From Trichocoleus desertorum NBK24 (GTDB taxonomy: Bacteria > Cyanobacteriota > Cyanobacteriia > FACHB-46): DNA of 64,000 nucleotides. The position numbers were made by a program, and so were the translations under genes. The stretch is taken from contig NZ_CP116619.1 of NCBI RefSeq assembly GCF_030409055.1, positions 1,831,628-1,895,627 on the forward strand, written 5' to 3'. The notes under the pieces were generated by a model. It was not told where the DNA came from and made no database searches. It saw nothing but the letters and a program-made list of their open reading frames with translations. Shown here in pieces: positions 30,925 through 41,512 of the stretch. Positions within the stretch are counted from its first letter, which is position 1. Every line of letters starts with the position of its first letter.

Positions 30925-31080
30925 ATGAGACGATTCCGACAAGGGCTGCTGATTCTAATCTGTCTTTATGGGCTATATCTCATTAAGACAGCATTGGGAA
31001 TTGACATTTCTCAGCGCTACACAGCTTGGGAGGTCTTCAAGCTACCAGTCAAACCCTTGATGGAGCGCTCATCTGGCTAA
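30925..31080 (+). CDS. possible small single-TM protein, 51 aa
   Basis: ATG at 30925 opens MRRFRQGLLILICLYGLYLI, a positively charged start and one hydrophobic helix, then a short hydrophilic tail ending at TAA 31080. It overlaps the end of the convergent cupB by 4 bp. The charged-then-hydrophobic shape looks like a real membrane peptide; no homologue is recalled. Confidence 0.45.
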   Translation: MRRFRQGLLILICLYGLYLIKTALGIDISQRYTAWEVFKLPVKPLMERSSG

Positions 31081-32219
31081 TACCTATCCGGAACGTTCAC
31101 GATCTCTAAACGAGAGGTAATAAAGCGATCCATCCACTTTTCTAGATAGACTCGATTGGCTTGACGTTGTTTGGGATCTTCCGTGTCGAGCGGATGAGGC
31201 ATCAAGCCCCGAATCGCGGCTGTAGTCACACAGAACATCGACTTTTGGAAGCTCTCACAAATTTTCACCCGCAAATCATCTTCTCCCCGGATTCCCTGCT
31301 GATAGATGTCATGCAAGTAATCTGGCAGGAAGTGGCGCATATCCTGCATCAGCAGCGTCGGAGGGATGCCCGCCCCACCAATTGGCAACGGGTCAGCGTA
31401 TAGCGCTCCATAGGTAAACTGGTCTTGAAAAACCGGAATTTGTTGAGCTTGGGCGTTGTAAGATACCGTGCCGAGGAAAGGGGTGCCTCGGAAGAAAATA
31501 GTATCTACATAAGGAACTGCTGCATCCATCAAGAACGTCAGCCCTGCTGATTCAGGAATAATGTTATACACCTGACCCTTCACTTCAACGGCGTAAATCA
31601 AAGGTTGATTGGCAGCCGCAACCAAAGCATCTTGCACATGCTGCACCACCTCGGCGATCGACTGGATTTCCTTACGATCGAAGCGATCCGAGAGGTCGAT
31701 GAACATATCGCTCATCACCCGCCAAAACTGACCCAACACCTTGTAATAAGCTAATTGCCGAATCTGTTCTGGCAAAAAGTCTGGAAACACCCGCTGCAAA
31801 CTGCTCACCAACCAGTTATTTTTGGTTTTGGCTTGCATCACCCGCTGTGCCCGTTCGAGAAATTCCGGTGAGTCTAGATAAGTGTCGAGATCACCACCAC
31901 CATGCCACAACATGGTTTTCATCACGTACTCAGCATACTCATAATTGATCCGATCGTGATTCCAGAAGCGCAGTAGTTTCCCTAGGGAAATTTCCCCGTT
32001 GAAATATTTGAAAAACGGGAAGAGTTCTAGAAACTGATGGTCAGCAATATAAATCAAGTTTTTAGAGTAGGCATCCAGCACAACGCCGTAGCTTTTGAGG
32101 ATACCTACGACTTCTAAAACATTGACCTGACTATTGGCGAGAAGTGCCTCTCCAGCTTCTAGCCGATGCACATACTCCGCCAAGGGATGATTAGAGGGTT
32201 GCTGGATAGTACTGACCAT
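31077..32219 (-). CDS. cupB: CO2 hydration protein CupB (ChpX) of the NDH-1 CO2-uptake complex
   Basis: The 380-aa protein belongs to the CupA/CupB (ChpY/ChpX) family, which converts CO2 to bicarbonate on the cytosolic face of specialised NDH-1 complexes. Landmarks are LAEYVHRLEAGEALLANSQV, LFPFFKYFNGEISLGKLLRF and DYLHDIYQQGIRGEDDLRVK. I call it CupB because it follows ndhF/ndhD genes divergent from the ccm operon, the layout of ndhF4-ndhD4-cupB in other filamentous cyanobacteria, and because no cupS gene follows. CupA is the alternative. It begins 4 bp after the ndhD stop. Confidence 0.8.
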   Translation of the reverse strand: MVSTIQQPSNHPLAEYVHRLEAGEALLANSQVNVLEVVGILKSYGVVLDAYSKNLIYIADHQFLELFPFFKYFNGEISLGKLLRFWNHDRINYEYAEYVMKTMLWHGGGDLDTYLDSPEFLERAQRVMQAKTKNNWLVSSLQRVFPDFLPEQIRQLAYYKVLGQFWRVMSDMFIDLSDRFDRKEIQSIAEVVQHVQDALVAAANQPLIYAVEVKGQVYNIIPESAGLTFLMDAAVPYVDTIFFRGTPFLGTVSYNAQAQQIPVFQDQFTYGALYADPLPIGGAGIPPTLLMQDMRHFLPDYLHDIYQQGIRGEDDLRVKICESFQKSMFCVTTAAIRGLMPHPLDTEDPKQRQANRVYLEKWMDRFITSRLEIVNVPDRY

Positions 32220-36525: not shown

Positions 36526-36834
36526 ATGCCAATTGCAGTAGGCATGATTGAAACCAGAGGCTTTCCAGCGATCGTGGAAGCAGCAGACGCAATGGTCAAA
36601 GCAGCTCGCGTTACCCTAGTAGGCTACGAGAAAATCGGTAGTGGTCGTGTCACTGTCATCGTGCGGGGCGACGTATCTGAAGTTCAAGCTTCTGTATCGG
36701 CTGGCGTGGAATCTGTGAAGCGAGTCAACGGTGGCGAAGTGCTATCGACCCACATTATTGCTCGTCCCCATGAAAACCTGGAGTACGTGTTGCCAATGAG
36801 CTACACCGAAGCTGTAGAACAGTTCCGGACCTGA
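36526..36834 (+). CDS. ccmK2: carboxysome shell protein CcmK2 (BMC-H hexamer)
   Basis: The 102-aa BMC-domain protein forms hexamers tiling the facets of the beta-carboxysome shell. It carries [40 protein letters not shown] (with the KIGSGR pore loop, residues ~36-41) and [16 protein letters not shown]. Order K2-K1-L is the usual one in beta-cyanobacteria, and the longer second copy matches K1, so the two could be swapped in name. GGAG-like ribosome site CAGGAGAT precedes the ATG. First gene of the ccm operon. Confidence 0.93.
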
Positions 36835-36909: not shown

Positions 36910-37257
36910 ATGGCAATCGCAGTGGGCATGATCGAGACCTTGGGTTTCCCGGCGATCGTGGAAGCCGCAGACGCAATGGTCAAAGCGGCTCGCGTTACCC
37001 TGGTTGGCTACGAGAAAATCGGTAGTGGACGTGTCACCGTCATCGTGCGAGGCGACATTTCTGAAGTCCAAGCTTCCATAGCAGCAGGTATTGAGTCTGT
37101 GAAGCGGGTCAACGGGGGACAAGTGCTGTCTACCCACCAGATTGCTCGTCCTCACGAAAACCTGGAGTATGTGCTACCCATCCGTTACACTGAGGCAGTC
37201 GAACAGTTCCGTGAGAGCGTGAATGGTCCTCGCTCACTTCCCCTAACCAGACCCTAG
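36910..37257 (+). CDS. ccmK1: carboxysome shell protein CcmK1 (BMC-H hexamer)
   Basis: 115 aa with the same BMC core as its neighbour ([26 protein letters not shown] pore loop, [14 protein letters not shown]) plus a short C-terminal extension ([14 protein letters not shown]) typical of the longer CcmK. Co-hexamers with CcmK2 are known from other species. AAAAAGGAG precedes the ATG. It ends 6 bp before ccmL. Confidence 0.93.
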
Positions 37258-37263
37258 GCTTGA

Positions 37264-37566
37264 ATGCTAATTGCTAAAGTTCGCGGCACGGTTGTCAGTA
37301 CACAAAAAGACCCTGGTCTACAGGGTAGTAAATTCCTCTTATTGCAACTGATCGATGAAAATGGCAACCTTCTACCAGAGTATGAGGTGGCAGCTGATTG
37401 TGTCGGGGCAGGGCTAGATGAATGGGTACTGATCAGCCGAGGAAGCGCAGCTCGTCAGCCTTCTAGCCAAGAAAAGCGCCCGATTGATGCGCTTGTGGTG
37501 GCAATTATCGACACGGTTACGGTTGACAATTCCCGGCTTTATAGCAAGAACGAGGTCTATCGTTAG
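37264..37566 (+). CDS. ccmL: carboxysome vertex protein CcmL (BMC-P pentamer)
   Basis: The 100-aa protein has the EutN/CcmL fold: MLIAKVRGTVVSTQKDPGLQ, FLLLQLIDENGNLLP, DCVGAGLDEWVLISRGSAAR and PIDALVVAIIDTV. Pentamers cap the 12 vertices of the shell. It follows ccmK1 by 6 bp. Confidence 0.96.
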   Translation: MLIAKVRGTVVSTQKDPGLQGSKFLLLQLIDENGNLLPEYEVAADCVGAGLDEWVLISRGSAARQPSSQEKRPIDALVVAIIDTVTVDNSRLYSKNEVYR

Positions 37567-37726: not shown

Positions 37727-39805
37727 ATGGTAGTCCGCAGTTCTGCGGCCCCCCCAGCTCCGTGGTCTAGTAGCACGGCCCAGCCGCAGATCAAGCCGCA
37801 GATCAAAGAGACGGCTTATGTCCACGCTTTCGCCAACCTTGTCGGGGACGTGCGAGTTGGTGACAATGTTCTGATTGCAGCGGGAGCCTATATCCAAGCG
37901 GATAAGGGCAGCCCTTTCTACATCGGCACTGGCACCAATATTCAAGACGGAGTAATGATTCATGGTCTAGAAAAGGGCCGAGTGATTGGGGATGACCAGA
38001 ATCAATACTCTGTCTGGATCGGCAGCAATGCTTCGATTACCCACAAGGCTTTGATTCACGGTCCAGCTTACGTTGGCAATGACTGCTTTATTGGTTTTCG
38101 CTCCACGGTGTTTAACGCTCGTGTGGGCAGAGGCTGCATTGTGATGATGCATGCTTTAATCCAAGATGTGGAAATTCCACCAGGTCGGTATGTGCCGTCC
38201 GGTGCAGTTATTACCAGTCAACAGCAGGCCGATCGCCTACCCGATGTGGAAGACTCGGACATTGAGTTTGTCAGGCACATGGTGAGCAACAACAATGCCC
38301 TACCTGCTGATGATCTCCATGCTGAAGATATTGCTTGTCTCATACCCATTCGTAATAAGTTAACGGAGCCTGATACCTTTGGGGAAGGTCAAGGTTCTGG
38401 CAGTCGCAACCATCAAGAGTCAACTATGCAATTAAGTTCTGAAGTACTGCAACAAGTGCGCCAACTCCTGGCTGGGGGTTACCGGATTGGCATCGAGCAC
38501 GTGGATCAGCGTCGCTTCCGCACCAATTCTTGGCAGAGCTGTGCCTCCGTTCAAGGTAACAGCGAATCTCAAGCGATCGCGGCGTTAGAAACTTGTCTCG
38601 CCGAGCACCAGGGTGAATACGTTCGTTTGTTTGGGATTGACACCAAAAGCAAGCAGCGAGTTTCAGAAGTGATCATTCAGCGCCCTGGCGATCCGGCGGT
38701 GACTGCCTCTAGCGGTGCTTCAACTAGCCGCAACTGGAGCAATGGCAGTGGTCAAAGCAGTGCTTCTGCGGCTGCTAAGAGTAGTTCTGCGAGTGGTAGT
38801 GGTGTGACCGCAGCAGTTCAGCAGCAAGTGCGTCAACTCTTGAGCCAAGGCTACCGCATTGGGACCGAGCACGTGGATGAGCGTCGCTTCCGTACCAACT
38901 CTTGGAACAGCTGTAGCCCCATCCAAGCAACGAGTGAAGCCCAAGTTTTGGCAGAACTGAATTCTTGTCTGGCTGAGCACCAAGGCGAGTATGTGCGACT
39001 GATTGGCATTGACTCCAAAGCTAAACAACGAGTATTAGAAACGATTATTCAGCGCCCTGGTGACCAGACCAACGCATCTAGCACTCCTACCTCCCGAAGC
39101 ACGGGTCACGTAGGGGGCGGTCAAACTTCGTCTCAAGGTACTGGCTTTAGTAGTGGTTCTGCAAGCGGTGATCTGCAACAGCAAGTGCGTCAGCTCTTGA
39201 GCCAAGGCTACCGAATCGGAACTGAGTACGCCGATGAGCGCCGCTACCGCACTAGTTCTTGGAAGAGTGGTCCTTCGTTCCAAGCCAAGCATGAATCAGA
39301 AGTGTTGGGCAACTTAACCAGCTTCTTGGCTGAGCACCAAGGCGAATATGTGCGGTTGATTGGCATTGACCCCCAAGCTAAGCGCCGAGCTTCTGAAACC
39401 TTGATTCAAACTCCCAGCGGTAAGCCTCAGGGGGCGAGTGTTCCCGTTTCCAATACCAACGGCAATTCGAGTAACGGTTCTAGCAGCTTCAGTAACCATT
39501 CCAGTGGTTCCAGCGCTGGTACCAGTGGCTTGTCTGCGGAAGTGCAGCAACAAGTACGCCAGCTGTTAAACCAAGGCTGCCGGATTGGCACTGAGTATGC
39601 CGATGAGCGCCGTTATCGGACTAGCTCGTGGAAGAGCGGCCCCTCCATTCAAAGCAATAGTGAATCGGAAGCATTCGCTTCTCTGAAAGCAATTGTGGCT
39701 GAGCATGAAGGGGAGTACGTGCGACTGATTGGAGTTGACCCCAAGGCTAAGCGTCGGGTGTCGGAACTCCTGATTCAGCAGCCCACAGCGATCGCTCAGC
39801 GTTAA
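37727..39805 (+). CDS. ccmM: carboxysome scaffold CcmM: gamma-carbonic anhydrase domain plus four SSUL repeats
   Basis: The 692-aa protein organises Rubisco. Residues ~30-210 form a left-handed beta-helix gamma-CA domain with Zn-ligand histidines at 79 (MIHG), 106 and 111 (THKALIHG). Cys204 is present, but residue 198, where a disulfide partner would be expected six residues before, is His. Four Rubisco small-subunit-like repeats follow (~237-320, 361-445, 481-562, 603-686), each with [15 protein letters not shown] and FRTNSW or YRTSSW. Repeats 1 and 2 hold Cys pairs (272/290, 396/414; spacing 18); repeats 3 and 4 lack them. ATG at 38426 (residue 234) is a possible start for the short form (about 459 aa). 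Ser/Gly linkers join the repeats. Confidence 0.97.
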
Positions 39806-39891
39806 TGATGTAAATTCCGGTGGAGGTTCTGATCTGTCAAAGGTCACCTAGTACAGCCGATTCTTGTTTGACTCTAGAGGTGCCCACGCTC

Positions 39892-40575
39892 ATGTCTTTG
39901 CCACCACTTCACCCCCCTGCAAATCCTGAAACTTATGTACGGGGTGACGTGACAATTCATTCAGGCGTTGCGATCGCACCGGGCGTGCTCATTCAAGCAG
40001 AACCCAACAGCCGGATCATCATTAATGCAGGCGTATGCATTGGGATGGGCAGCGTCCTGCATGCTTACGAAGGAACTTTAGAGCTGCGAGAGGGGGTGAA
40101 CTTAGGTGCAGGTGTTCTAGTCATTGGTGAAGTGACCATTGGCGCGAATGCTTGCATCGGTTCCTCCGCTACCCTCTTCAATTGTGAGATTGGGGCAGGG
40201 CAGTTGATACCCTCTGGCTCTGTGCATGGAGATTTGAGCCGTCAAGTAGCCTCAGAAAATGGTTTAGAAGCCAATGCTAAAATAACTTCTGAACCTACGG
40301 CGATCTCTCAACCTGTCGCTACTCCAGCGGCTCCATCTCAAACAACGACACCATCGCAAGTAACCCCAGAGACAACCTCAGAGGCAAACTCAGGGGCAAA
40401 CTCAGAGGCAACGCCAAAGGCAAACTCAGATCAGTCAGCCTTAGCAACAAAATCTCCGGAGGCAGCGCCAACTCAAGTTTATGGGCAGGCTTATCTCAAT
40501 CGATTGTTGGGAACGCTCTTACCCCATCGCCAAGCGCTAAATCAACCGATTCATAATGATGATTTAAGCGAATGA
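39892..40575 (+). CDS. ccmN: carboxysome assembly protein CcmN
   Basis: The 227-aa protein (ATG at 39892, behind GAGGTG; frame open to 39820) has an N-terminal left-handed beta-helix (SLPPLHPPANPETYVRGDVT to VHGDLSR, ~residues 1-120) that binds CcmM. A long Thr/Ser/Ala linker and a C-terminal amphipathic encapsulation helix (VYGQAYLNRLLGTLLPHRQA) follow; the helix contacts the shell. The linker contains imperfect repeats of SEAN/TPEA. Confidence 0.94.
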   Translation: MSLPPLHPPANPETYVRGDVTIHSGVAIAPGVLIQAEPNSRIIINAGVCIGMGSVLHAYEGTLELREGVNLGAGVLVIGEVTIGANACIGSSATLFNCEIGAGQLIPSGSVHGDLSRQVASENGLEANAKITSEPTAISQPVATPAAPSQTTTPSQVTPETTSEANSGANSEATPKANSDQSALATKSPEAAPTQVYGQAYLNRLLGTLLPHRQALNQPIHNDDLSE

Positions 40576-40672: not shown

Positions 40673-41512
40673 ATGATGACACCTCCGAATAATTCTCCTG
40701 CCTCTGAACGGCTCCGTCGCATCCAAAGCCTCAAAGAAAGCGCGCTTGGCCTCGTTTCTACCCAGAGTTTTCCGGCCATTGTGGGCACCGCCGATATGAT
40801 GCTCAAGTCTGCGGGTGTTACATTAATTGGTTATGAGAAAACGGGCGGTGGCTACTGTACTGCGGTCGTGCGGGGTAGAATTGCAGACGTGCGTCTTGCG
40901 GTAGAGATGGGGGCAGAAACAGCAGAGAAGTTTGGGGAACTAGTATCTGCCGTGATCATTCCTCGGCCCCTTCCCAACCTAGAGGCCGTATTGCCCATTG
41001 GCACTCGCTTAGCCGAGTTAGCTCTCGAAAATTCTCAAAGCCGTCTGAGTAACTTAGCGGTGGGTCTGCTAGAAACAAGAGGGTTTCCGGCGATGGTTGG
41101 TGCGGCAGATGCCATGCTGAAGTCGGCGGATGTACAGTTGGCTGCCTATGAGAAAACGGGGGCTGGTCTTTGTACTGCCATTATTCGCGGCTCTGTGGCA
41201 GACGTGGTAATTGCAGTTGAGATTGGTATGCAAGAAGCCGAACGGATCGGAGAATTGCACGCCGTCATGGTGATTCCTCGACCCTTAGATGACCTAGAAG
41301 CGACCCTGCCAACAGCAGCCTGCTGGATTGAGAAAAAACCCGATCCTTTACCAATCTTGATCTCAATTCCAGTCCAGGAAGAAGAGAAAGAACTGGTTGA
41401 GCTAGAGAGAACAACTGTCCAACCTCTGTCCCTTCCAGCCCAAGTAGCTGAACCAGATTTGTTAGAACTCCCGGATCTACAAAAATTGCCGAAGCGCCTA
41501 GAAGAACTCTAG
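40673..41512 (+). CDS. ccmO: carboxysome shell protein CcmO (double BMC domain)
   Basis: 279 aa with two tandem BMC domains: ~20-110 (SFPAIVGTADMMLKSAGVTL, YEKTGGGYCTAVVRG) and ~128-215 (GFPAMVGAADAMLKSADVQL, YEKTGAGLCTAIIRG), then a charged tail. Such trimers with large pores form part of the shell and are needed for carboxysomes in Synechococcus elongatus. Start 40673 or 40676 (both ATG). Confidence 0.92.
   Translation: MMTPPNNSPASERLRRIQSLKESALGLVSTQSFPAIVGTADMMLKSAGVTLIGYEKTGGGYCTAVVRGRIADVRLAVEMGAETAEKFGELVSAVIIPRPLPNLEAVLPIGTRLAELALENSQSRLSNLAVGLLETRGFPAMVGAADAMLKSADVQLAAYEKTGAGLCTAIIRGSVADVVIAVEIGMQEAERIGELHAVMVIPRPLDDLEATLPTAACWIEKKPDPLPILISIPVQEEEKELVELERTTVQPLSLPAQVAEPDLLELPDLQKLPKRLEEL

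Follow-up and report, generated by a model that had tools for sequence, protein, structure and literature searches.

The closest described relatives of the CcmM protein analysed here differ in whether their N-terminal domain is an enzyme. CcmM of Thermosynechococcus elongatus BP-1 is an active gamma-carbonic anhydrase (gamma-CA; structure 3kwc), and the T. elongatus genome lacks CcaA (PMC9120777). The CcmM domain of Synechococcus elongatus PCC 7942 (M58), in contrast, is a trimeric scaffold that binds the C-terminal peptide of CcaA (PMC8580825). CcaA-bearing cyanobacteria tend to possess an inactive CcmM, for which a cysteine pair and a few further residues are diagnostic (PMC5472144, PMC9120777, PMC9865033, reviewed in PMC13249358); the published strain sets are small, comprising 12 alkaliphiles (PMC5472144) and 17 thermophiles (PMC9120777). 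No survey of comparable size to that presented below, relating the CcmM pair to CcaA, was found in the openly accessible literature searched.

The CcmM studied here is encoded within a 64,000-nucleotide stretch of the Trichocoleus desertorum NBK24 genome, referred to as the window. It shares with T. elongatus CcmM its fold family, the three zinc histidines and a high identity over residues 1-212, but lacks the Cys194-Cys200 pair, Arg53 and Glu56 of that enzyme. It resembles S. elongatus CcmM in being long, in keeping the three histidines, in having lost the Cys194 equivalent and in occurring together with CcaA. However, in S. elongatus CcmM neither cysteine remains and the entire C-terminal helix sequence is gone (17 departures from the conserved positions defined below), whereas the window protein still has the second cysteine and the greater part of the helix. 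Arg53 and Glu56, by contrast, are present in S. elongatus CcmM and missing from the window protein. The window protein also has four SSUL modules as opposed to three. The inactive S. elongatus protein was itself present in our sample (row G402), its sequence being identical to the 7d6c/7o4z stretch, with three histidines and no cysteine pair. We consider it highly likely that the T. desertorum CcmM would act as a trimeric carboxysome scaffold, the gamma-CA domain of which is no longer an enzyme, and that CcaA would be the carboxysomal carbonic anhydrase.

The ccmM gene (37727-39805, + strand) encodes a protein of 692 aa that scored 879.6 bits against NCBIfam NF053794 (cut-off 550) and contains four RuBisCO_small stretches. 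The gamma-CA-like domain occupies residues 1-212 (37727-38362, +), as delimited by a phmmer match of these query residues to 3kwc (E 4e-95). It is followed by the SSUL modules, i.e., the four RuBisCO_small stretches, from Met234 onward (38426-39802, +), with Met234 being a candidate short-form start by likeness to M35. Two ccmK shell protein genes (36526-36834 and 36910-37257, both Pfam BMC) and ccmL (37264-37566, Pfam EutN_CcmL) precede ccmM, while ccmN (39892-40575; NCBIfam NF053793, 162.6 bits over ORF residues 25-142) and ccmO (40673-41512; NCBIfam NF053792, 368.7 bits) follow it, giving a beta-carboxysome cluster of the order ccmK-ccmK-ccmL-ccmM-ccmN-ccmO, all on the + strand. The ccmN ORF opens at 39820 and its family match starts at the ATG at 39892. 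This cluster is adjoined by a CO2 uptake cluster of the ndhF-ndhD-cupA type on the - strand, with a ChpXY family match at 31077-32219. With a gamma-CA-like domain followed by SSUL repeats, and with its gene located within a ccmK-L-M-N-O cluster, CcmM is, as judged from these sequence features, a beta-carboxysome scaffold. Given that SSUL modules 1 and 2 possess cysteine pairs (C272/C290 and C396/C414), and that modules 3 and 4 have none, with Cys618 as a single cysteine, the redox switch of the scaffold seems to be kept in modules 1 and 2 (38540-39802).

The initial annotation had proposed that His198 and Cys204 correspond to Cys194 and Cys200 of T. elongatus, with an offset of 4, and that the activating disulfide could not form. 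In a phmmer comparison against solved structures, the query motif HAEDIAC aligned without gaps to CAENIAC of 3kwc, from which it follows that His198 (CAT, 38318-38320, +) stands in place of Cys194, and that Cys204 (TGT, 38336-38338, +), the Cys200 equivalent, is kept without its partner. This alignment could have placed another cysteine at position 198, but placed a histidine there. The only other cysteines in the domain, C120 and C137, both match 3kwc cysteines outside the pair, so neither of these ordinary conserved residues substitutes for C194, and a replacement cysteine was ruled out. The argument of the annotation was thus sound: where active gamma-CAs of the T. elongatus type have Cys194-Cys200, the window CcmM has His198 and Cys204, and the activating disulfide cannot form. 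Two congeneric genomes showed a related state, with His at the first cysteine position in one (G387, domain 97% identical) and Ser in the other (G386, domain 79% identical), and with the second cysteine kept in both. As the first cysteine is missing (His, His, Ser) and the second retained in each of the three species sampled from the genus, all of which possess CcaA, the simplest history would be a loss of the first cysteine in the common ancestor of the genus.

By alignment to 3kwc and by reading of the codons, His79 (37961-37963, +), His106 (38042-38044, +) and His111 (38057-38059, +) were confirmed to occupy the three zinc ligand positions, as had been annotated. The same approach revealed damage that the initial annotation had not mentioned, namely that Gln57 (CAA, 37895-37897) and Lys60 (AAG, 37904-37906), together spanning 37895-37906 (+), replace Arg53 and Glu56 of T. 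elongatus. Alignment to Methanosarcina Cam chains placed these residues opposite Arg59 and Glu62, the Cam residue count being consistent with published numbering in that His81, Gln75 and Asn73 were in place. Both Cam residues are listed among the active-site residues of gamma-CAs, and Glu62 is described as taking part in the transfer of protons and the binding of bicarbonate (PMC7199487, PMC4519908). The statement that T. elongatus CcmM has no equivalent of Glu62 (PMC4519908) was not borne out, since Glu56 aligned there. Arg and Glu were present at these two sites in all 78 CcmM from CcaA-less genomes. Of the residues that mark an active gamma-CA, the window protein therefore lacks Arg53 and Glu56 and possesses the three zinc histidines, Trp13 and Asn185; Asn67, Gln69 and Asp70 are also kept. 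The congener G386 retains the Arg and Glu but carries D55N and N67T. Thus, the active site in this genus is damaged beyond the missing disulfide.

The initial annotation had raised the use of a separate carboxysomal carbonic anhydrase as one alternative, and a genome search for ccaA upheld it. The genome, a single contig of 5.46 Mb, contains three beta-CA genes, one of which (G000:C1:851395-852168) encodes a full CcaA of 258 aa. Its best solved relative was the CcaA-type enzyme of beta-carboxysomes 5swc (E 2.6e-104, residues 1-211), from which it showed no notable difference; the zinc motifs CxDxR and HxxC and a docking peptide are present. The C terminus, GWLPREQAHRIYRGSY, when compared with GWLAPEQQQRIYRGNAS of S. 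elongatus, retains the docking Trp and Arg, equivalent residues of which (W257 and R265 of S. elongatus CcaA) were shown to be necessary for docking on CcmM (PMC8580825). On the CcmM side, the docking residues N124, R126, D141 and Q159 and the head-to-head residues R164 and D172 (all S. elongatus numbering) are kept in the window protein; the docking residues were the same as those of S. elongatus except at position 81 of the interface, where Ile replaces Leu. A transposase-like ORF fragment was observed upstream of ccaA (L001:436-990, +), and would be compatible with a published proposal that ccaA was gained horizontally.

The remaining two beta-CAs carry N termini that, from sequence, are of the exported type, and neither has a CcaA docking tail. 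A second intact gamma-CA paralogue of the kind present in G002, G298 and G390, as a rescue for CcmM, was not found in this genome, in which the remaining hits were weak. Outside the window, at G000:C1:1059898-1061076 (L130:961-2142, - strand), lies a gene adjoining a CobW/COG0523 GTPase gene and encoding a protein of 393 aa whose N terminus is hydrophobic and which carries two gamma-CA-like domains in tandem. Domain 1 of this protein has only the His102 equivalent and domain 2 only the His75 and His107 equivalents, such that both halves together could form one composite zinc site. The same split of histidines was observed in both congeners and also in G185 and G289.

In order to place the window in a wider context, the CcmM domain was extracted and aligned from a source sample of 386 genomes of the phylum and 59 relatives, and CcaA was searched for in the same genomes, with score, length and tail being used to tell it from shorter, tailless relatives. 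The cysteine pair was lost in 42 of 74 genomes with CcaA, compared with 1 of 79 without (153 genomes; Fisher 5e-16, ignoring relatedness). The exception, G237, is a draft of approximately 300 contigs from a genus in which most other sampled members have CcaA; with this draft set aside, both cysteines were found in 78/78 CcmM of CcaA-less genomes. A separate scan of named genomes showed the pair to be kept in 80/80 CcmM, and together these two sets indicate that the loss in the window is not background variation. By parsimony on a domain tree built without the C-terminal columns, the cysteine state changed at least 14 times, and a model with a CcaA-dependent loss rate was preferred on the same tree (LR 33, p ~7e-8), which derives from the same short domain and is poorly supported. 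Phylogenetically independent pairs on supported branches numbered only three, leaving a sign test without power. Among 40 further genomes the trend was the same, the pair being lost in 8 of the 29 that have CcaA and 1 of the 11 that do not, a difference that is not significant alone (p 0.40); losses were few in this set because it had been chosen for high similarity to the window. Its CcaA-less exception, G574, is a draft that is 69% complete and has a congener with CcaA (G562). Given that the strain carries CcaA as a separate carboxysomal carbonic anhydrase, the loss of the cysteine and of active-site residues is ordinary and has evolved repeatedly. The surprise expressed in the initial annotation was therefore overrated, as the same loss occurred in about half of the sampled CcaA genomes and the principle had already been published; what is new is this case, in which the domain is caught at an early stage, and the addition is a modest one.

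Further observations concerned individual genomes. Three of those with CcaA (L162, L163 and L347 in G058, G083 and G211) encode a family f14 CcaA that finishes in TDTFSVSG and in which no docking peptide could be recognised, and their CcmM lack both cysteines despite this tail. In G308, in which CcaA is present, CcmM (L097) has both cysteines, an Asn in place of His75 and changes at other conserved residues, from which the active site would have decayed earlier than the disulfide. Two CcmM-type genes were observed in G298 (L102/L123), G002 (L106/L121), G390 (L167/L277), G389 (L271/L273) and G407 (L278/L281). The long scaffold of G002 and of G298 is without one zinc His and both cysteines, whereas the short gene (~309 aa) keeps all of these, as if the roles of scaffold and enzyme had been shared out between the two.

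Erosion elsewhere in the domain was measured against a yardstick of 78 positions that are nearly invariant in CcaA-less CcmM. Among CcaA genomes, the median number of departures was 1 where the pair was kept and 13.5 where it was lost, or 1 and 10, respectively, when positions 191, 192, 194 and 200 were left out (p 6e-12). No erosion was seen in the 32 of 74 CcaA genomes that retain the pair, and the presence of CcaA by itself does not, therefore, mean an inactive CcmM. The window CcmM departs at 10 of the 78 positions (T11A, L17T, I35V, P48A, S51Y, R53Q, E56K, G191D, Y192D and C194H in T. elongatus numbering), within a range of 5 to 32 for eroded CcmM overall. When the 78 positions were divided into 43 relaxed and 35 kept in other eroded CcmM, with the window's own family omitted, all 10 departures fell within the relaxed positions and none within the kept ones (p 0.0017), the pattern of a domain that is no longer constrained by catalysis but is still constrained by its use as a scaffold. 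Given the retention of Trp13, Asn67, Gln69, Asp70 and Asn185, the erosion is only partial. In the 44 cysteine-less CcmM, the zinc histidines were kept in 39, 44 and 41 cases, whereas Glu56, Asn67 and Asn185 had decayed in 29, 16 and 18; the second cysteine alone was kept in ten of these genes and the first alone in one.

The partial nature of the erosion (10/78, in a range of 5 to 32) and the many other genomes that combine an intact-looking CcmM with CcaA would be compatible with both enzymes contributing, CcmM having a low residual activity beside CcaA. The dual-enzyme genomes, however, form two groups (medians of 1 and 13.5 departures), and the window falls into the group that has lost the pair, making this shared arrangement very improbable. 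It is also unlikely, if somewhat less remote, that the domain is still an active, redox-independent carbonic anhydrase, with its C-terminal helix held without the disulfide, for example through a metal bound by His198-Cys204 or through packing alone. The three zinc histidines and Cys204 are indeed kept, the helix after Cys204 is near normal, and the Cys200 equivalent persists in 3/3 species of the genus. Yet the Arg53 and Glu56 equivalents are lost as well, with D55N and N67T instead in G386, and the Ser of G386 means that the members of the genus do not even share a His-Cys metal site. The changes R53Q and E56K thus make an inactive domain more likely than one stabilised otherwise, these being the two remaining alternatives of the initial annotation. 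The predicted structure of the domain (mean pLDDT 68) fell below 50 in the C-terminal stretch, i.e., 191-214, and has no bearing on this question. Also against continued activity is the behaviour of T. elongatus CcmM209, which Pena and co-workers reportedly found in 2010 to be inactive when reduced. The inactivity of reduced CcmM209 is summarised in a review (PMC13249358). Finally, the probability that codon 198 was misread or misassembled is negligible: the genome is closed in one contig, a change from TGY to CAT takes two substitutions, and the error was already refuted by the congeneric genomes, with the same His in G387 and a Ser in G386.

We thus favour a CcmM that acts as a scaffold without catalysis, with CcaA as the enzyme. 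Once CcaA was present, CcmM catalysis would have come under relaxed selection, and as early as the ancestor of the genus the active site and the disulfide would have decayed, whereas trimerisation, docking and Rubisco binding would have remained under selection. Carbonic anhydrase activity in the carboxysome would then come from CcaA that is attached by its C-terminal peptide to the gamma-CA-like domain of CcmM. The zinc site that remains probably has a structural role. Rather more tentatively, and at somewhat below even likelihood, the zinc site of CcaA-bearing CcmM may have been retained after the loss of catalysis in order to clamp the scaffold trimer structurally; crystals of the inactive S. 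elongatus domain likewise contained a bound metal ion, Ni2+ (PMC8580825). On this reading, the window would represent an early stage in which the first cysteine was lost first.

At the level of genomes, a rule emerges in which the cysteine pair is present in every well-assembled CcaA-less genome sampled and its loss accompanies decay of the active site. The pair may therefore serve as a marker of whether a carboxysome relies on its old carbonic anhydrase or on a borrowed one. The genus of the window lacks one cysteine and two active-site residues but is otherwise intact, and would be a convenient intermediate in which the cost in activity of each loss could be determined.
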